From the IMG/VR virus record IMGVR_UViG_3300017743_000180, positions 1 through 20,839 of that record: a DNA stretch of 20,839 nucleotides. The stretch is one strand, 5' to 3'. The notes under the pieces are model-generated. The model saw nothing but the letters and a program-made list of their open reading frames with translations, was not told where the DNA came from and ran no database searches. Shown here piece by piece: positions 2,687-10,082 of this stretch. The first letter of the stretch is position 1. Every line of letters starts with the position of its first letter. Both the position numbers and the translations under genes were made by a program. The DNA is from a virus.

Positions 2687-3994
2687 ATGGCTACTTATGT
2701 AAATAACTTACGGCTCAAAGAAATCGCCACGGGCGATGAAAGTGGCACTTGGGGCACCAGTACCAACACTAACCTTGAGCTGATTACCGACGGTTTTAGC
2801 TATGGCACGAAGCAGATGGCGGCTGACGCCAACGAAACCTTCACGATGCCGGACGCTACAGCAGACGCGACTCGCGGGTTTTACCTAAAGATTACTTCGG
2901 CGGGTGCTCTTACGGCTACTCGTGAGGTAACACTCGGTCCGAACACTGTATCTAAGGTGTGGATGATCGAGAACGCTACTTCAGGCAGCCAGATTATTAC
3001 GATCAAGCAAGGCTCGGGCGCTACGGTTAACGTCGCTAATGGCTCTAAAGTCATGGTCGTCACAGACGGTGCGGGTGCAGGCGCTGCGGTCCTTAATGCC
3101 AATCCAACAGAAGTGGGCGGTACGGTAACAAGTGTAGCTGTTTCTGGCGGCACCACAGGTCTTACTACTTCAGGCGGCCCTGTAACTACTTCTGGTACAA
3201 TTACTCTTGCGGGTACTCTCGCTGTCGCTAACGGCGGTACGGGTGTAACTTCATCTACAGGTACTGGCTCGGTTGTTCTGTCTACTAACCCAACTTTTGC
3301 GGGTCTTACGACTACTGCGGATATGAGTTTTGGGGATAACGACAAGGCCATCTTTGGTGCTAGTAATGACCTACAGCTTTATCATGATGGTAGTAATAGT
3401 TACATTGACGACGCCGGTGCAGGTTCGCTACTTATTCGTGGCACAAACTTGCAGCTACGCAGCTACACCACTAATGAAAACTTCCTTACAGGCACTGAAA
3501 ATGGTGCAGTTAGCTTATACTATGACGGCACAATCAAAGCAGCCACAATTTCCACCGGCCTAGACGTAACAGGCACAGTGCGATCCGACAGCCTCTCCGA
3601 TGGCGGTGGTGTAGGTAAGATCAACTACGATTCTAGCTCGTTCTTCTCTGGCGCTTTCTCTGACGAAGTAACTGCTTTAGGTAATACTGGAACAGCGGTA
3701 ACGATTGACTGTGACGATGGTAACGTATTTACTGCGACCCTAACTGGTAATGCCACTATTACTTTGGCTACACCTAACAGCACCGCTAATAGAGCAACTT
3801 CGTTTACATTGGTTCTTACTAACGACGCTACGGCAAGTCGAACAGTTGCTTTTGCGGGGGGAACCTTTAAGTATCCGGGCGGTTCAGTTAGCCGCACTAC
3901 CGATGCTAATGCTACAGACATTTGGTTCTTCTTTTCTCCAGACAACGGAACAAATTGGTATGTAAGCATACCCATGAAAAACTTATCATCTTAA
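2687..3994 (+). CDS. Phage tail-fibre-like structural protein
   Basis: 435 aa. The N-terminus (TYVNNLRLKEIATGDESGTW then GTSTNTNLELI) resembles the virion-attachment part of marine phage fibre-like proteins. Around residues 140-205 a Thr/Gly/Ser-rich stretch with ANGGTG and TGTGSVVLSTNPTF motifs is typical of trimeric fibre shafts. It is followed by an LQLYHDGSNSYIDD segment and a SLLIRG motif, also recurrent in fibres. The last 110 residues (EVTALGNTGTAVTIDC, FTATLTGNATITL, FAGGTFKYPGG, WFFFSPDNGTNWYVS) form a separate beta domain, probably the distal tip. No peptidase S74 chaperone domain is visible. GGAGA at 2676-2680 lies 6 nt before the start. A role in host contact or as a tail appendage is inferred from composition and motifs. 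Confidence 0.8.
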   Translation: MATYVNNLRLKEIATGDESGTWGTSTNTNLELITDGFSYGTKQMAADANETFTMPDATADATRGFYLKITSAGALTATREVTLGPNTVSKVWMIENATSGSQIITIKQGSGATVNVANGSKVMVVTDGAGAGAAVLNANPTEVGGTVTSVAVSGGTTGLTTSGGPVTTSGTITLAGTLAVANGGTGVTSSTGTGSVVLSTNPTFAGLTTTADMSFGDNDKAIFGASNDLQLYHDGSNSYIDDAGAGSLLIRGTNLQLRSYTTNENFLTGTENGAVSLYYDGTIKAATISTGLDVTGTVRSDSLSDGGGVGKINYDSSSFFSGAFSDEVTALGNTGTAVTIDCDDGNVFTATLTGNATITLATPNSTANRATSFTLVLTNDATASRTVAFAGGTFKYPGGSVSRTTDANATDIWFFFSPDNGTNWYVSIPMKNLSS

Positions 3995-4002
3995 TTTAAG
4001 AC

Positions 4003-4015
4003 AGCCTAGGAGGCT
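4003..4015 (+). promoter_or_regulatory. Strong Shine-Dalgarno within a short hairpin
   Basis: TAGGAGG (4007-4013) lies 8 nt before ATG 4022. It is flanked by AGCC (4003-4006) and overlaps GGCT (4012-4015), which can pair as a 4-bp stem with a 5-nt loop. The ribosome site is clear; any regulatory effect of such a small hairpin is speculative. Confidence 0.45.
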
Positions 4016-4021
4016 ACTAAA

Positions 4022-4246
4022 ATGGCACTAACAGCAGAACAACAAGCAGAAGTAGATTTACAAGAAGCTATGCGCTCAGGCGACAGAGAGCAAGAAGCAA
4101 AGCGAGTTAAGCTTGAAGCTCTTCGTATGGCTAAAGAGATTGTGGTAGAAAACCGTCGCACGCAAAGCGCGGCTGAAGCTACTGATATAACCGCCGAGTC
4201 GATACAAGCTATTGCAGACAGCCTAACCACTTACGTTAACTCGTAG
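4022..4246 (+). CDS. Small charged helical protein, function unknown
   Basis: 74 aa, almost entirely predicted helix: LTAEQQAEVDLQEAMRSGDR, a Glu/Lys/Arg-rich middle, and an amphipathic end (ESIQAIADSLTTYVNS). It has no Cys, no membrane segment and no recognised motif. It has one of the best Shine-Dalgarno sequences in the window, implying high expression, and its stop is 1 nt before the first oxygenase gene, so the two are probably co-translated. Similar small helical proteins accompany fibre genes in other phages, possibly as chaperones, but this is not established here. Confidence 0.75.
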   Translation: MALTAEQQAEVDLQEAMRSGDREQEAKRVKLEALRMAKEIVVENRRTQSAAEATDITAESIQAIADSLTTYVNS

Positions 4247-4247
4247 T

Positions 4248-4826
4248 ATGGAAGCTTACGCTTACTTTTCTTCCCCCATATACCGCGAAGAGCGCCCAGA
4301 GTGGGTAGAAGAAACGCTAAAGCATACGCAGAAATACTACGACGAAACGCAGTCGGGAGTGGTTAAACATACTAGACCTATGGCAAATGACTCTGACCTT
4401 GAGTACTTAGCGTCTTACTTTCGGGATAAGGGTGTTAGTATTTTAAAGGATCAGGGGTATTTAACAGACGAGTACGAGTTTTACGTTTCTGAGATGTGGG
4501 GTCAGGAGTTTGCTTGCACGGGCAGTAACATTATGCATGTTCATGGGGATAGCCAAATATCTGGTTTTTACTTTATGGAAGTCCCAGAAGACGGTTCCTA
4601 CCCTATATTTGACGACCCGAGACCGGGCAAACGCATGGCAGACCTGTGGACATCGCCTAGCGACGAAGTAACAATGGCAACACCGCAGGTACACTTTAAC
4701 AACGTGCAGGCGGGTACAATGATGTTATTTAACTCGTGGCTACCGCACATGATTACACCAAACCAATCTAATAACCCGACAAAATTTGTGCATTTTATTT
4801 TGTCGCAAAGAAAAAGGTTTATTTAA
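4248..4826 (+). CDS. 2OG-Fe(II) oxygenase 1 (2OG-FeII_Oxy_5-like)
   Basis: 192 aa. The core is a double-stranded beta-helix dioxygenase. H97-V-H99-G-D101-S-Q-I-S-G-F-Y-F matches the H-x-H/x-D...SG-x-Y-[YF] iron-binding strand of the putative 2OG-Fe(II) oxygenase family 2OG-FeII_Oxy_5. The next markers are FDDPR at 121-125 and AGTMMLFNSWLPH at 155-167, with His167 as distal iron ligand. The Arg that normally binds 2-oxoglutarate appears replaced by Lys179 (NPTKFVHFIL). Predicted reaction: oxidation of an unknown substrate coupled to decarboxylation of 2-oxoglutarate. It shares a TAATG junction with oxygenase 2. Its distance from the other three enzymes in sequence suggests separate ancestry. 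Substrate unknown; the setting within virion genes hints at a structural protein. Confidence 0.85.
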   Translation: MEAYAYFSSPIYREERPEWVEETLKHTQKYYDETQSGVVKHTRPMANDSDLEYLASYFRDKGVSILKDQGYLTDEYEFYVSEMWGQEFACTGSNIMHVHGDSQISGFYFMEVPEDGSYPIFDDPRPGKRMADLWTSPSDEVTMATPQVHFNNVQAGTMMLFNSWLPHMITPNQSNNPTKFVHFILSQRKRFI

Positions 4827-5410
4827 TGCAGCATTTGCTGACGCCGTATTCAAGGGCAATAAAGCCGTTTGCTTGGTGGGAAGGTGCGTTTACCGAAGAA
4901 CAGCTAGATTGGTTACAGCAAAAAGCTAAAGAAGCCACAAAAGAGGCCGCAGTTGGCGGGGGCGGTAGTGGAGAAGTTAACGACCAAATAAGAAGTTCTG
5001 AGATTAACTGGCTACATAAAGATATAGAATGTGAGTGGATATTTGGAAAGTTAAGTCACATTGTTTCTAGTTTAAATGCAGATTATTTTGGGTTTGATCT
5101 GACTGGGTTTGGAGACGCTTTGCAACTTACAAACTACCACGAAGCTAGACAAGGACACTATAAATGGCACCAAGATTTTGGTTCGTCTGGGGTTTCGAGA
5201 AAGCTTTCTTTGGTTTTACAGCTATCCGATCCTAATGATTACGAAGGTGGAGAACTCCAACTACTAACTACAGGACAGCCCACTTCGATTCATAAAAAAA
5301 GAGGGCTTATCACAGTGTTTCCTGCTTGGACATTGCATCAGGTGACTCCCGTAATTAAGGGAACAAGGCAAACACTAGTTACGTGGATTTCGGGACCTGC
5401 TTTTAAATGA
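4826..5410 (+). CDS. 2OG-Fe(II) oxygenase 2 (PKHD/prolyl-4-hydroxylase-like)
   Basis: 194 aa. It carries a full facial triad and co-substrate site: W114-H115-Q-D117 (H-x-D), H171 in FPAWTLHQVTPV, and R181 in GTRQTLVTW. Further support comes from RKLSLVLQLSDPNDYEGGEL, a hallmark of PKHD-type hydroxylases (YbiX/PiuC-like), and the GP end. The N-terminal 60 residues are helical (FTEEQLDWLQQKAKEAT) with a Gly-rich linker GGGGSG at 44-49. The enzyme is predicted to be cytoplasmic, with no signal peptide. It overlaps the gene before (TAATG) and after (ATGA), so the three oxygenases should be made together. The substrate is not visible from sequence; prolyl or other side-chain hydroxylation is the family expectation. 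Confidence 0.88.
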   Translation: MQHLLTPYSRAIKPFAWWEGAFTEEQLDWLQQKAKEATKEAAVGGGGSGEVNDQIRSSEINWLHKDIECEWIFGKLSHIVSSLNADYFGFDLTGFGDALQLTNYHEARQGHYKWHQDFGSSGVSRKLSLVLQLSDPNDYEGGELQLLTTGQPTSIHKKRGLITVFPAWTLHQVTPVIKGTRQTLVTWISGPAFK

Positions 5411-6003
5411 ACTCAGAATATAAAGATTTTATTGGTGTATTTTCTGAAGTTTACCCTGACGGGTTTTGCGAGCATTTAATAGCTGAGTTTGAGCGCAATC
5501 AAAATTTAGGGGTGGGAGTTAATAGACAAAAAGGCGAAGGCGCGGTTAAACACGTCAAGAACGACTATCAAATTTGTTCTAACGGGAAAAATGTAAACTT
5601 TGATGGGTTTAACGGACAGCCCACTATAGATATGTTTTTTAACGGCCTTCAGGAATGTTTTAAAGAATATACAAACGAGTTCTCGTGCCTACAAAACATA
5701 GACATAAGGTGCAACAACATGAAAATGCAAAAGACCTCTACCGGAGGCGGCTATCATGTTTGGCATGGTGAACAAGGTAACGGAGAGCAAGCAAATAGGG
5801 GTTTAGTTTATATGCTTTATCTTAGTACACTACCTCCAGAAGCTAACGGCGAGACAGAGTTTTTATATCAACAGAGACGAATAAATCCTGTTGGAAATAC
5901 TATGGTATTGTGGCCCGCCGCGTTCACCCACGCACATAGGGGTAACCCCGTTTACGGCGACCACACTAAATATATTGTTACAGGGTGGTTTTACCACGAG
6001 TGA
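5407..6003 (+). CDS. 2OG-Fe(II) oxygenase 3 (P4H-like, H-x-E variant)
   Basis: 198 aa. Core motif GGGYHVWHGE (113-122) gives His120 and Glu122 as iron ligands, so the usual Asp is Glu. RGLVYMLYLSTLPPEANGET is followed by FLYQQRRINPVGNTMVLWPA and FTHAHRGNPVYGDHTKYIVTG. The distal ligand is His175 or His177; H-x-G-x-PV matches the prolyl-4-hydroxylase pattern, favouring His177. Lys188 occupies the place of the 2-oxoglutarate-binding Lys of prolyl 4-hydroxylases. The N-terminus (FIGVFSEVYPDGFCEHLIAE) has the usual helical opening of phage and bacterial P4H-like enzymes. It is encoded directly before the glycine-rich protein, 7 nt from its start. Hydroxylation of that neighbour is an attractive inference but has no direct sequence proof. 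Confidence 0.85.
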   Translation: MNSEYKDFIGVFSEVYPDGFCEHLIAEFERNQNLGVGVNRQKGEGAVKHVKNDYQICSNGKNVNFDGFNGQPTIDMFFNGLQECFKEYTNEFSCLQNIDIRCNNMKMQKTSTGGGYHVWHGEQGNGEQANRGLVYMLYLSTLPPEANGETEFLYQQRRINPVGNTMVLWPAAFTHAHRGNPVYGDHTKYIVTGWFYHE

Positions 6004-6010
6004 GTAGATT

Positions 6011-7069
6011 ATGCCTATAGGTACTAGTAAAGCAGGCTTGTTAGGTGCGGGCGTAGTCCCCGGCGGCAGCCAAGTATTCAACTCTTCGGGAACTTTTGTT
6101 GTCCCTGCGGGGGTTACTTTAGTTAGTGCTTCGGGTTTGGGCACCGCAGGTAATTCCGGAAACGCAGGTAGTGCGGGCGGCTTAGGCGCAGGGGGTTCTG
6201 GAGGTGCGGGAGGTAACGCAGGAAACTCCGGCCTACCAAGTTCGTATCGAGCATCTGCTTCGTCTAATCCGGGCGGATCAGGAGGTTCCGGAGGGGGAAG
6301 TGGACCTTCCGGTAATCCGGGTAATGCCGGTACAGCTTCGTCTGCGTTTTGTTTGAATTTCCCCGGAGGAACTGCGGGAACTGGCGGAAACGGTGGGGCA
6401 GCCGGAGCCAGTGGTAATTCCGGAACTGCGGGAACTCCAGACAACAGCGCCATTGCCGTCCCGTGTAACTTCCCTACTCCGACTCTACAAACCATTTCAA
6501 GCGGTGGCGGTGGCGGCACTACGGGTGGCGGCGGTGGCGCGAGTGCAAGAGCGCGCACCATCCCGTGTCCTTGTACGAACATTAGGTCAATATATATATT
6601 AGGCGGTGGTGGCGGCGGTGGGTCCGGAGACACAAACAGCGGCAGTACCGCTTCAAGCGGTTTTGCTGCGGGACTATTTCAACAAACAGCGCCGGGAGGC
6701 ACCGCAGGTGGTGGAAGGGGTGCCAGACCAAGCTATAGCTACGGGCAAACGCCCGGTGGAGGTAGTACTGGTTTAAGCAGGGCGGGAATACCCGGCGACG
6801 CAGGTGCAAGCGCCTCATCTCCGGGAGCGGGCGGTGGCGGTGGCGGTGGGGGGTCGATGATTTACGGCCTTCAGTCTACTAATGTTCAAGCTACTGCGGG
6901 AAGCGGTGCCGGTGGTGGGGGCCGTGGGAGTGCAGGTAATCCGGGTAATCCCGGCAATGCCGGGGCCCCTTCAAACCCTACAGTTCACAATTGCGTTAGC
7001 GTAGTTTCAGGAGCTTCGTACCCAGTAACGGCTAACGCCCCCGTAACTATTTCATGGGACCCACAATAA
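6011..7069 (+). CDS. Glycine-rich, partly collagen-like fibre/adhesin protein
   Basis: 352 aa. An opening VFNSSGTFVVPAGVTLVSAS (22-41) matches the SGTF-x-VPAGVT start of glycine-rich domains found in phage tail proteins. Then come Gly-X-Y runs at residues 44-76 (11 triplets), 89-109 (7), 120-143 (8), 259-267 (3) and 303-320 (6). Every Pro at a Y position follows Gly-X (GLP, GNP, GTP, GIP, GAP). Poly-Gly tracts also occur (165-176, 198-204, 273-281). The composition suits either a polyglycine-II bundle, as in the S16-type phage adhesin gp38, or a collagen-like stalk. Five Cys (114, 152, 186, 188, 328) could cross-link it. Host binding is likely but inferred. Confidence 0.8.
   Translation: MPIGTSKAGLLGAGVVPGGSQVFNSSGTFVVPAGVTLVSASGLGTAGNSGNAGSAGGLGAGGSGGAGGNAGNSGLPSSYRASASSNPGGSGGSGGGSGPSGNPGNAGTASSAFCLNFPGGTAGTGGNGGAAGASGNSGTAGTPDNSAIAVPCNFPTPTLQTISSGGGGGTTGGGGGASARARTIPCPCTNIRSIYILGGGGGGGSGDTNSGSTASSGFAAGLFQQTAPGGTAGGGRGARPSYSYGQTPGGGSTGLSRAGIPGDAGASASSPGAGGGGGGGGSMIYGLQSTNVQATAGSGAGGGGRGSAGNPGNPGNAGAPSNPTVHNCVSVVSGASYPVTANAPVTISWDPQ
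6140..6439 (+). repeat. Collagen-like Gly-X-Y triplet stretches
   Basis: Unbroken Gly-X-Y frames occur at 6140-6238, 6275-6337 and 6368-6439, with a further stretch at 6917-6970. Asn is common at X (GNS, GNA, GNP) and Pro occurs only rarely at X but repeatedly at Y. The stretches are interrupted by non-triplet linkers, unlike a long collagen. Confidence 0.7.
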
Positions 7070-7071
7070 GT

Positions 7072-7536
7072 ATGAACCAAGAAGACCTTGATAGTGCGAT
7101 GAAAGAGCATCATTTAAAGCAACAAATACGCTCTTTAGAGGCTAATAAAAATAGAGCGCAGTCCGTCAGTATTGGTATGTCGGGTTCTGGCACGACAGAA
7201 ATAACTATGCGGGGAGAAGACGGCACGTTTTTGTGGAATATATATCAACCCGTTCAAGTAACAGAATTTATACATCAACTAGCCGCTAGTATAGGTTGCC
7301 ACATACACATTCAACCTAGAAAAGATTTTGGTAGTTGGAGAGAATGGAACGAACCTACGGAGCAAGAGCAGTTACACTTAAATGGTTTTCCTCCTTTTGC
7401 CCAACAAAGCGTAGGACATGAAAAAATAGGTTTGATACCCCAAAATGCTCCGCAAACTAAGGAGAAAGAGAATGTGGCAACTAAAAAGGCTGTCAACAAA
7501 CGAAGCACTAAGCGAAGCAGGACCGCTTCCAAATAA
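7072..7536 (+). CDS. Phage protein of unknown function with basic tail
   Basis: 154 aa from ATG 7072; an in-frame ATG at 7054 would overlap the Gly-rich gene by 16 nt. Neither start has a strong Shine-Dalgarno. Residues 1-27 (MNQEDLDSAMKEHHLKQQIR and following) look like a short coiled coil. The middle contains a beta-like SIGMSGSGTTEITMRGEDG, then a helical VTEFIHQLAASIGCHIHIQP with two His around a Cys, and a WREW motif. The last ~25 residues are very Lys/Arg-rich (KKAVNKRSTKRSRTASK), possibly nucleic-acid binding. Its last 65 nt overlap the next gene out of frame. I do not recognise the family; position between fibre and chaperone-like genes suggests a tail role. Confidence 0.7.
   Translation: MNQEDLDSAMKEHHLKQQIRSLEANKNRAQSVSIGMSGSGTTEITMRGEDGTFLWNIYQPVQVTEFIHQLAASIGCHIHIQPRKDFGSWREWNEPTEQEQLHLNGFPPFAQQSVGHEKIGLIPQNAPQTKEKENVATKKAVNKRSTKRSRTASK
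7459..7464 (+). promoter_or_regulatory. Ribosome binding site inside the preceding gene
   Basis: AAGGAG lies 7 nt before ATG 7472 and within the upstream reading frame. It selects 7472 over the in-frame upstream ATG at 7445. Confidence 0.6.
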
Positions 7537-7837
7537 CTGGGGTCCTATATTTGGCTTGCATGGGTTCCAAGAAAAACTTGGTGACTTGTCGTGGCTAGGT
7601 CCTTCCTATGCGGATAAGGGGTGGGTAGAGCTAACTCAAGAAGAGCAGGAAGCCCTAGAGACTGCCGCCGTCACAGCCAAAGTCCAATCATTGAAGACTG
7701 AGACGGAAGAAAGGCTAACAACCCCAGACCTTACGGTAGAGCTTAAAATAGCTTTGAATGAATATCTATTAGCCCTTGATAGTGTTTGTTTGTGCCCAGA
7801 CTTTAACTGCGACCCAAAGTTTCCGGTGAAGCCTTAG
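7472..7837 (+). CDS. Tail-assembly-chaperone-like phage protein
   Basis: 121 aa with start at 7472 chosen for its AAGGAG. The conserved-looking N-terminus (MWQLKRLSTNEALSEAGPLP, then NWGPIFGLHGFQEKLGDLSW, GPSYADKGWVELT) is followed by an acidic helix and a C-terminal block TTPDLTVELKIALNEYLLAL...PKFPVKP. The latter half resembles phage tail assembly chaperone-like proteins, which typically end in an Asp-rich helix, a conserved Tyr and a final P-x-[KR]-P. It lies downstream of the Gly-rich fibre gene, where fibre assembly chaperones are often encoded. The family call is from pattern memory and is tentative; the frame itself is secure. Confidence 0.7.
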   Translation: MWQLKRLSTNEALSEAGPLPNNWGPIFGLHGFQEKLGDLSWLGPSYADKGWVELTQEEQEALETAAVTAKVQSLKTETEERLTTPDLTVELKIALNEYLLALDSVCLCPDFNCDPKFPVKP

Positions 7838-7840
7838 TTT

Positions 7841-8428
7841 ATGGAGATTAGTGGATATAGAGTTAAGAATCTATCTTACATAACCATAGACAACTTTTTT
7901 ACTGCCGAAGAATTAAAAACAGTTACCCAAGAAATAAAAGACCTAAAAAGATTTAGTCTCTCTGCCGAAAAAACTGGCACGGCAATAAACGAAGTCAACA
8001 ATTTAAAGAAAACAGGCACGGGATTATTTTTAGACGGCCTTTACTCCGAAAACCGAGACGCGTCGGACATACTTAAAGCAAACAGGAAATTGTTTGCCCC
8101 AGAGATACAAGACTACGCGACTGAATTTGATATTATTTTTGAGTATATGAGGGAGTCCAACCAAGACACTACCCTACTAAATTACTACGCCGAAGGGCAA
8201 AGCTACGCCCCTCATAAAGACCAAGCAAGGATATCATCGGTTTTATTTTTACGAGCCGGAGAGTTTACAGGAGGAGAGTTTTCTTTCCCTGAACAGGGAG
8301 TAACTATTGAGGCCGTGCATAATCGAGCGGTTGTCTTCCCCGGATGTGCGACTCATGCCGCCATGCCTTTATACGGGGCCGGAACAAGAGTTTCAATAGC
8401 CCAGTTTATAGATTATGTTGGAAAGTAA
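7841..8428 (+). CDS. 2OG-Fe(II) oxygenase 4
   Basis: 195 aa. Complete cofactor site: H125-K-D127 in the strand YYAEGQSYAPHKDQARISSV, H172 in VVFPGCATHAAMPL, and R183 in GTRVSIAQFI. The central FLRAGEFTGGEFSFPEQ gives the usual F-x-GGE-x-x-F feature of P4H-type folds. The N-terminal half (YITIDNFFTAEELKTVTQEI) matches the helical cap of these enzymes. It is separated from oxygenases 1-3 by the Gly-rich gene and two small genes, so the four enzymes bracket the fibre gene. The next gene starts immediately after its stop. Substrate unknown; it shares only motifs, not overall sequence, with the other three. Confidence 0.87.
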   Translation: MEISGYRVKNLSYITIDNFFTAEELKTVTQEIKDLKRFSLSAEKTGTAINEVNNLKKTGTGLFLDGLYSENRDASDILKANRKLFAPEIQDYATEFDIIFEYMRESNQDTTLLNYYAEGQSYAPHKDQARISSVLFLRAGEFTGGEFSFPEQGVTIEAVHNRAVVFPGCATHAAMPLYGAGTRVSIAQFIDYVGK

Positions 8429-9162: not shown

Positions 9163-9384
9163 ATGGAATATCAAGTAATGTTTAACGTAGCTATCGCCTT
9201 GGCGGGTTTTATTGGCGGTTGGTTAGTCAACCGTGTATTTGCTTTGTTAGACCGCATTGACGCCGAAATGAAAGCTATACCGATGCAGTACGTGGCAAAG
9301 GACGACTACCGCGAAGACATCCGCGAGATCAAAGAGATGCTTGGGGCTATATTCAAGCGACTAGAGAACAAGGCAGACAAATGA
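9163..9384 (+). CDS. Small membrane protein with C-terminal coiled coil (holin partner or i-spanin-like)
   Basis: 73 aa: a single hydrophobic segment at about residues 7-25 (FNVAIALAGFIGGWLVNRVF), then a charged helix ending REIKEMLGAIFKRLENKADK. An N-terminal membrane anchor followed by a coiled coil is the topology of an inner-membrane spanin subunit, but the protein is short for that family, so a holin or antiholin accessory is equally possible. Its last 4 nt overlap the lipase start (ATGA), tying the two in translation. A lipoprotein resembling an o-spanin is encoded after the lipase and could be its partner. Confidence 0.75.
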   Translation: MEYQVMFNVAIALAGFIGGWLVNRVFALLDRIDAEMKAIPMQYVAKDDYREDIREIKEMLGAIFKRLENKADK

Positions 9385-10082
9385 AACTCGATCCGGTAAT
9401 GCTGAAAATGGCCTGCTCATGGTCAATGAAGGCGTACAACGAAAAAAATAAAGACGTGATCAAGATAGAGTCCAAGCTGACCTCTACCACTGCCTACTTC
9501 GTCCGAAGAAAAACCATCGACATTATTGTATTCCGTGGCACGCAGCAGGTGGGCGACTGGGCTTTTAACCTAATGGCGGTCCCTGTCCCGTATGCAGGCA
9601 GGCTGTGTCATGGCGGGTTTGTCACGGCCCATGCTTCTGTTTGGGGCCAAATCAAAAAGCTAATAGATCCCGAGAAGCGCACTCTAATTTGCGGCCATAG
9701 CCTCGGTGGGGCGCTTGCTGAGCTGACAGCCGCCAAGCTAAACGGCAAGCACGATAACCTGCACCTTATAACTTTTGGCAAGCCTAATACGTTCTTCAAA
9801 GGTTTTAAAAAGCCGATGGCCCTAGACAACCAAATATCCTGTGTTAACGGCAGTGACAGCGTAGCTCGTATACCTCGGTTGTGCTACGGCCCGAGCAAAT
9901 CACAAGAGATGCTGTACTTTTCTAATGCAGGTGTAGACTACATAAATCCTAGTAAGTACCTACGCAAAAAAGATAGGGGTGTTAAGGATCGTGTGTCAGA
10001 TCATTTTATGGACGGTTACAAAGAACGACTAACCCAATTCCTAGAGGATCAGAAAAATGGCAAAACTGGCGTTGATATTTAG
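9381..10082 (+). CDS. Class 3 lipase (alpha/beta hydrolase)
   Basis: 233 aa. The nucleophile elbow G105-H-S107-L-G-G lies in TLICGHSLGGALAEL, the acid is Asp159 (NGSDSVARIPR) and the base is His208 (VSDHFMDGY), in the order and spacing expected of Lipase_3 enzymes. VFRGT at 50-54 is the usual oxyanion strand, and CHGGFVTAHASVW at 76-88 the lid-proximal helix. Predicted reaction: hydrolysis of acylglycerols or phospholipids. There is no signal peptide, so it would depend on the holin to reach the envelope or would act on the inner membrane from inside. It is encoded between two envelope proteins of the lysis module, suggesting a lysis role; a metabolic role cannot be excluded. Confidence 0.88.
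   Translation: MKLDPVMLKMACSWSMKAYNEKNKDVIKIESKLTSTTAYFVRRKTIDIIVFRGTQQVGDWAFNLMAVPVPYAGRLCHGGFVTAHASVWGQIKKLIDPEKRTLICGHSLGGALAELTAAKLNGKHDNLHLITFGKPNTFFKGFKKPMALDNQISCVNGSDSVARIPRLCYGPSKSQEMLYFSNAGVDYINPSKYLRKKDRGVKDRVSDHFMDGYKERLTQFLEDQKNGKTGVDI

Follow-up and report, generated by a model that had tools for sequence, protein, structure and literature searches.

Linkage of multiple 2-oxoglutarate oxygenase genes to a glycine-rich predicted adhesin suggests prolyl hydroxylation of receptor-binding proteins in phages

The 2-oxoglutarate (2OG)- and Fe(II)-dependent oxygenases of marine phages are common 'auxiliary' genes with no agreed substrate. In this report, we describe a virus record of 20,839 bases (IMG/VR IMGVR_UViG_3300017743_000180; the whole stretch is referred to as the window), in which four such genes, designated E0 to E3, stand around a gene for a glycine-rich protein that we predict to be a receptor-binding protein. 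The link between enzymes and Gly-rich protein was seen in about 100 related loci, and this linkage suggests, short of proof, that these phages hydroxylate their own adhesins. Taking sequence comparison and structure prediction together, we consider it reasonably probable that the co-encoded oxygenases hydroxylate proline in the Gly-rich stem of the phage's own receptor-binding protein.

The cassette genes are all on the + strand and mostly overlap or lie a few bases apart. E0 (4248-4826) is of the PF13759 type (49.6 bits; phrog_81, 1e-26), E1 (4826-5410) is PF13640/PKHD-like (57.4 bits; phrog_61, 2.8e-33), E2 (5407-6003), with a predicted protein-prolyl-hydroxylase fold, matches PF13640 at 44.4 bits (phrog_61, 3.1e-36) and E3 (7841-8428) at 38.0 bits (phrog_61, 4e-20); all four exceed the curated Pfam cut-off, which is 27 bits for both families. 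E0 and E1 are joined by a TAATG overlap and E1 and E2 by an ATGA overlap, and the open reading frame (ORF) of the Gly-rich protein, the proposed substrate (6011-7069; 352 amino acids, 29% Gly), starts 7 nt past the E2 stop. A preliminary description of this DNA had named E1 and E2 as two oxygenase genes; their Pfam and PHROG matches bear this out, and the coordinates, overlap and spacing that it gave were exact when the genes were rechecked. E0 and E3 are further to that pair.

Searches of viral contigs with E1 and E2 yielded about 130 loci, and the block E0-E1-E2-(extra gene)-Gly-ORF160-ORF130, in which the last two are the genes following the Gly-rich gene, was retained in nearly all close relatives. 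We also ran the test in reverse, searching viral contigs by DNA pattern and hence independently of the enzymes; set A was gathered with a Gly-Asn-Pro-Gly-Asn-Ala pattern and set B with a Gly-rich pattern without Asn, and records of the same scan without a Gly-rich ORF at the match served as a neutral set. PF13640 was present in 42/50 records of set A, which encode Gly-Asn-[Pro/Ala/Ser] (GN-type) proteins, compared with 15/50 in set B and 4/50 in the neutral set (Fisher, 7e-8 for A against B and 3e-15 for A against neutral); after removal of near-duplicates, the counts were 48/57 groups for the GN type and 15/53 for the comparison. Among well-flanked loci, whose Gly gene has at least 1.5 kb to either side, an oxygenase lay within 1.5 kb of that gene in 43/47 of set A but 4/22 of set B, in both gene orders and in 14 enzyme clusters. 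The Gly gene was within 100 bases of an oxygenase in 36/53 loci, against 7.2 expected from the other genes of the same loci, and this within-locus comparison controls for phages that are merely rich in oxygenases. Near-perfect GNPGNAGSA tandem repeats make up a short ORF, which may not be a real gene, at two places (L242:1209-1790 and L330:10825-11406), both in loci without an oxygenase.

As a matched control, relatives were gathered by the tail adaptor gene, which codes for neither an oxygenase nor a Gly-rich protein. A GN-type protein occurs in five contigs of this sample (two of them are probably one phage), and each of the five carries the enzymes; every contig without such a protein lacks a PF13640-type enzyme. 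Counted conservatively as 5/5 and 0/14, this gives a Fisher value of 8.6e-5, uncorrected for ancestry. The enzyme-free contigs include four (L143, L161, L207 and L209) whose Gly-rich proteins have 0-2 GN motifs, and in one of these, L161, the adaptor is 91-92% identical to that of the window, the Gly-rich protein is another one and the stretch available shows no enzyme. E0 occurs alone in two contigs of the sample (L197 and L211). Thus the co-occurrence of enzymes and Gly-X-Y gene across relatives, a check that had been set beforehand, was observed from four sides, namely whole records, 1.5-kb surroundings, adjacency and tail-adaptor relatives.

The iron-binding residues are intact in E1, E2, E3 and a fifth enzyme found in many relatives. 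Conserved among cassette relatives are H115xD117, H171 and R181 in E1, H120xE122, H175 or H177, and K188 in E2, that is, the iron and 2OG ligands, and H125xD127 and H172 in E3; in E0, H97, H99 and H167 are conserved, and an acidic third iron ligand is not evident from conservation. The sequences closest to E1 in the PDB are PKHD hydroxylases (3dkq, 2.5e-9; PiuC, 4.8e-7). E2 was the enzyme modelled with AlphaFold2, at a predicted local distance difference test score (pLDDT) of 84.2, and the best Foldseek match of the model is the Paramecium bursaria chlorella virus (PBCV-1) prolyl 4-hydroxylase vCPH (5c5t, 4.7e-9), which is also the sole, weak match of the E2 profile among PDB sequences (E 0.018). 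VIA-align gave Z scores of up to 15.9 to the Pseudomonas putida prolyl 4-hydroxylase PPHD and to PHD2 (4j25, 8z31), over 174-176 residues at 3.2-3.5 A. The predicted E2 fold is thus that of the protein prolyl hydroxylases PBCV-1 vCPH, PHD2 and PPHD. A search of bacterial genomes returned mainly distant bacterial oxygenases.

In 58/97 loci, E2 and the Gly gene are separated by a gap, mostly of about 575 bases, with one gene inside. The Pfam match of this gene is weak, but a conserved HxD...H motif (H97xD99, H149) and its similarity to phage '2OG oxygenase/ferrochelatase' genes make a fifth oxygenase probable. E3 occurs in a minority of relatives and is near the Gly gene in 10/65 distinct loci. 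Homologs of the fifth cassette gene, the one with this HxD...H motif, are found in pelagiphages as 'ferrochelatase' genes (L537:7998-8642, L538:7998-8639 and L539:7806-8426), and these look like misannotated 2OG oxygenases.

The Gly-rich protein contains in-register Gly-X-Y runs of at least five triplets that together span 96 residues, whereas 2000 shuffles of the same protein averaged 3.5 such residues and reached 45 at most. Of the runs listed in the preliminary description, those at residues 44-76, 89-109, 120-143 and 303-320 were recovered, and that at 259-267 amounts to three triplets only. The description had also placed Asn at X and Pro at Y, and the composition of 65 cassette relatives (1311 triplets) agrees, with Asn 33% and Pro 2% at X and Ala 26%, Pro 18% and Asn 4% at Y; in a wider set of enzyme-linked proteins (6407 triplets), Asn makes up 40% of X, and Pro makes up 20% of Y and is rare at X. 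The longest run has 11 triplets, many of them with Gly at X or Y.

Its AlphaFold2 monomer is compact and confident (pLDDT 89.6; predicted template modelling score 0.76), with 17 strands, including those at both ends (19-42 and 324-349), and long middle stretches to which DSSP assigns neither helix nor strand. The terminal strands, the 29% Gly and the poly-Gly conserved at 199-204 and 274-280 fit the description of glycine-rich receptor-binding domains (about 30-40% Gly). The top three VIA-align matches were the Pam3 fibre (7ypx) at Z 6.6 (2.1 A, 60 residues) and at Z 5.2, and ALK (7nx3) at Z 5.1 (2.0 A, 59 residues); they rank above unrelated rows, with Z below 8 and part of the model aligned. 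Foldseek alone returned no significant match with this model, so the assignment to a Gly-rich domain fold of the Pam3/ALK, or polyglycine-II, type is likely but not certain. We rejected a triple-helix collagen: the protein has no match to Pfam Collagen (PF01391) at E values up to 0.1, its runs do not exceed 11 triplets, and the predicted fold is compact, strand-bearing and nearest to the Pam3 fibre and ALK. The earlier label of a 'collagen-like' virion protein is accordingly not retained. The family profile has one weak PDB match, to collagen IX (0.0027), as expected of Gly-X-Y composition, and a tblastn search of phage records with the protein found nothing, the query probably being masked as low complexity.

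Gly-rich proteins with and without linked enzymes differ in proline rather than in asparagine. In those that lack GN runs, Pro is 5.3% beside oxygenases and 3.3% otherwise (p 3e-4; matched for G+C content, p 1e-3), Pro-Gly is also higher, and Asn is not (p 0.29); the suggestion of the preliminary description that Asn rather than Pro is modified therefore becomes less likely. The Gly proteins are richer in Pro in relatives that have the fifth enzyme (p 1.6e-5), a difference to which shared ancestry may contribute, and Lys is higher in Gly-rich proteins near oxygenases, which the lower G+C content of those loci may explain. Bacterial, phage and viral collagens without hydroxylases show no Y preference for Pro (PMC3368898); in contrast, Pro is favoured at Y and rare at X in the enzyme-linked proteins described here.

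In the cultured pelagiphages HTVC033P, HTVC023P and HTVC008M, Gly-rich genes adjoin oxygenase clusters and have few GN motifs, and a strict tie of the enzymes to GN runs was rejected on this account. The pelagiphage Gly-rich adhesin genes (L537:4719-6461, L539:1-5442 and L544:2377-5190) share a conserved GNTPPVSPPQGNPGG-like element, possibly a Pro-rich recognition site. In the Synechococcus virus S-PRM1, gp158 (L542:1435-6909) is an 1824-aa protein with a true collagen run of 59 triplets, with Pro at X and Lys or Thr at Y, and its gene is followed by one small ORF and then two 2OG oxygenases; here the Lys at Y points to hydroxylation of lysine rather than of proline. Another architecture of the same gene set was seen in L099, where E2-, E1- and E0-like genes lie downstream of a gene (2983-5493) whose 836-aa Gly-rich product matches Pfam Collagen significantly and has Gly-X-Y runs rich in Lys.

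We propose the following model. The Gly-rich protein would belong to the tail of the virion and bind the host; its first and last strands would form a TNF-like beta sandwich, from which the Gly-X-Y stretches project as packed polyglycine-II stems. During infection, ahead of virion assembly, the co-encoded oxygenases (four here, up to five in relatives) would hydroxylate this protein using Fe(II), O2 and 2-oxoglutarate. The likeliest target would be Pro at Y in an X-Pro-Gly context, the context used by prolyl 4-hydroxylases such as the collagen enzyme. The resulting 4-hydroxyproline may stiffen the extended stems and supply hydroxyl groups for packing or receptor contact, and the presence of more than one enzyme may reflect more than one target residue or context. 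Gene linkage, the intact iron residues of E1, E2, E3 and the fifth enzyme, the predicted E2 fold and the X/Y bias are what the data show, whereas the place in the virion, the binding to the host, the enzyme-substrate relation, the modified residue and its effect are what we infer.

Several points weigh against this proposal. Every argument is genomic or drawn from predicted structure, and packing of the stems could by itself produce the X/Y bias. The P values are not fully corrected for ancestry; single linkage at 50% identity leaves 12/19 against 4/26 groups, and at 30% identity most loci fell together, so that the clustering gave no information. The same enzyme family also stands beside fibres without GN runs in the cyanophages S-PM2 and S-CAM1, and a member in S-CAM8 lies among replication genes, away from tail genes. 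Because of these exceptions, members of the family need not share one substrate, and the oxygenases are often, not always, linked to Gly-rich or collagen-like tail proteins.

Phage receptor-binding modules are known to be swapped as blocks, and the enzymes could act on another target in or around the tail (the neighbouring fibre, some other structural protein or part of the host surface), accompanying the adhesin because both belong to one exchangeable host-range cassette. The membership of ORF160 and ORF130 in the cassette and the position of cyanophage E2-like enzymes after a short tail fibre without GN runs fit this explanation, but set A enzymes adjoin the Gly gene far more than other genes, fibre-bearing relatives without a GN protein also lack the PF13640-type enzyme, and how much Pro the Gly protein contains varies with enzyme linkage; we regard it as unlikely, although worth serious consideration. 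Beta-hydroxylation of Asn at X, of the kind catalysed by FIH or AspH, with a purely structural role for Pro at Y, would account for the commonest X residue (33-40%) and for GN runs being the strongest association with the enzymes. It appears improbable given that, where GN runs are missing, linkage tracks Pro and Pro-Gly and not Asn, that the nearest folds of the E2 model are prolyl hydroxylases, and that the adhesins beside pelagiphage oxygenases have few GN motifs.

The usual reading in the literature is that such genes are auxiliary metabolic genes, with a role in the metabolism of 2-oxoglutarate or iron, or encode enzymes that modify DNA or nucleotides, in which case proximity to the adhesin would be incidental. 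Cyanophage enzymes have been read as serving 2-oxoglutarate metabolism or DNA repair (PMC3037559), and pelagiphage enzymes as co-located metabolic genes (PMC9599517). Incidental position is an inadequate explanation of the linkage controls, and matches of window proteins to AlkB-like PF13532 and Tet_JBP are far under the cut-off; we therefore give this reading very little credence here.

Known systems resemble parts of the proposed hydroxylation of the adhesin. E1 has its closest solved sequences among PKHD-type hydroxylases (PiuC, Sbal_3634), which are bacterial proteins with, to our knowledge, no link to a tail adhesin. PBCV-1 vCPH, like E2 by its predicted fold, is a viral 2OG oxygenase of the protein-prolyl-hydroxylase type, but it belongs to a virus of algal cells and is a single enzyme with HxD, whereas here several enzymes, with HxE in E2, form a bacteriophage cluster around a Gly-rich protein. 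Pam3 gp24 and Salmonella phage S16 gp38 have TNF-like strands at both ends and Gly-rich stretches between, and Pam3 uses the chaperone gp25, with no oxygenase mentioned in the portion of the source consulted (PMC9608196); the proteins described here typically have Gly-Asn-[Pro/Ala/Ser] runs in three-residue register, with oxygenases encoded alongside. Collagen-like fibres of the Escherichia coli prophage EPclA type share Gly-X-Y repeats in phage fibre proteins but have true collagen domains, lack a hydroxylase and do not favour Pro at Y (PMC3368898). In pelagiphages and cyanophages, 2OG-Fe(II)/'ferrochelatase' clusters have phrog_61-type enzymes, several per genome, in tail regions, but are treated as metabolic or without a substrate, the adhesin link being undiscussed in the available parts of two reports (PMC9599517, PMC12774648). 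The second of these, a Phold survey, describes phage proteins resembling human prolyl hydroxylase EGLN3 as widespread, with no substrate named, and a study of Baltic viruses mentions prolyl 4-hydroxylase and tail-fibre collagen and calls their use cryptic (PMC9301287). We found no description of the oxygenase/Gly-rich-adhesin pairing in a literature searched mostly without subscription journals, and its novelty is therefore provisional.

Upstream of the cassette, a tail-fibre-like gene (2687-3994, +), syntenic in relatives, matches PHROG tail fibre and virion structural families (best 2.1e-23), and one small ORF separates it from E0. Downstream, ORF160 (7054-7536, +) overlaps the 3' end of the Gly-rich gene and directly follows it in nearly all relatives; it has no match in Pfam, PHROG, the PDB or, by tblastn, phage records, and its position makes an adhesin-specific chaperone possible. 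ORF130 (7445-7837, +), the second downstream partner, is conserved together with ORF160 and has no Pfam or PHROG family and no PDB match. A nucleotide search of phage records with the cassette region gave no match. Elsewhere in the window, a 280-aa protein (1607-2449) is built from repeat units like VTGVEATGALGTVTVEA and has no Pfam or PHROG match, and a lipase-like ORF with a GHSLGG motif (9381-10082), kept in relatives, lies near the lysis region.

The linkage described here points to a specific, testable substrate class for these oxygenases. If the proposal is true, post-translational hydroxylation would be part of the construction of host-binding proteins in these phages, and host-range prediction from sequence only would miss it; protein-prolyl hydroxylation would also reach beyond triple-helix collagen and signalling targets to domains of the polyglycine-II type. 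A broader version, to which we give somewhat less than even chances, is that many marine phages, with varied gene contexts, make hydroxylated polyglycine-II adhesins, the stems being oxidised during infection by a set of co-encoded oxygenases, each having its own residue or context; the quality of the receptor-binding protein would then depend on the O2, iron and 2-oxoglutarate of the dying cell. The cassette would thus be a system by which phages mature their receptor-binding proteins after translation, and it would account for a large unexplained group of oxygenases, phrog_61 and its relatives.

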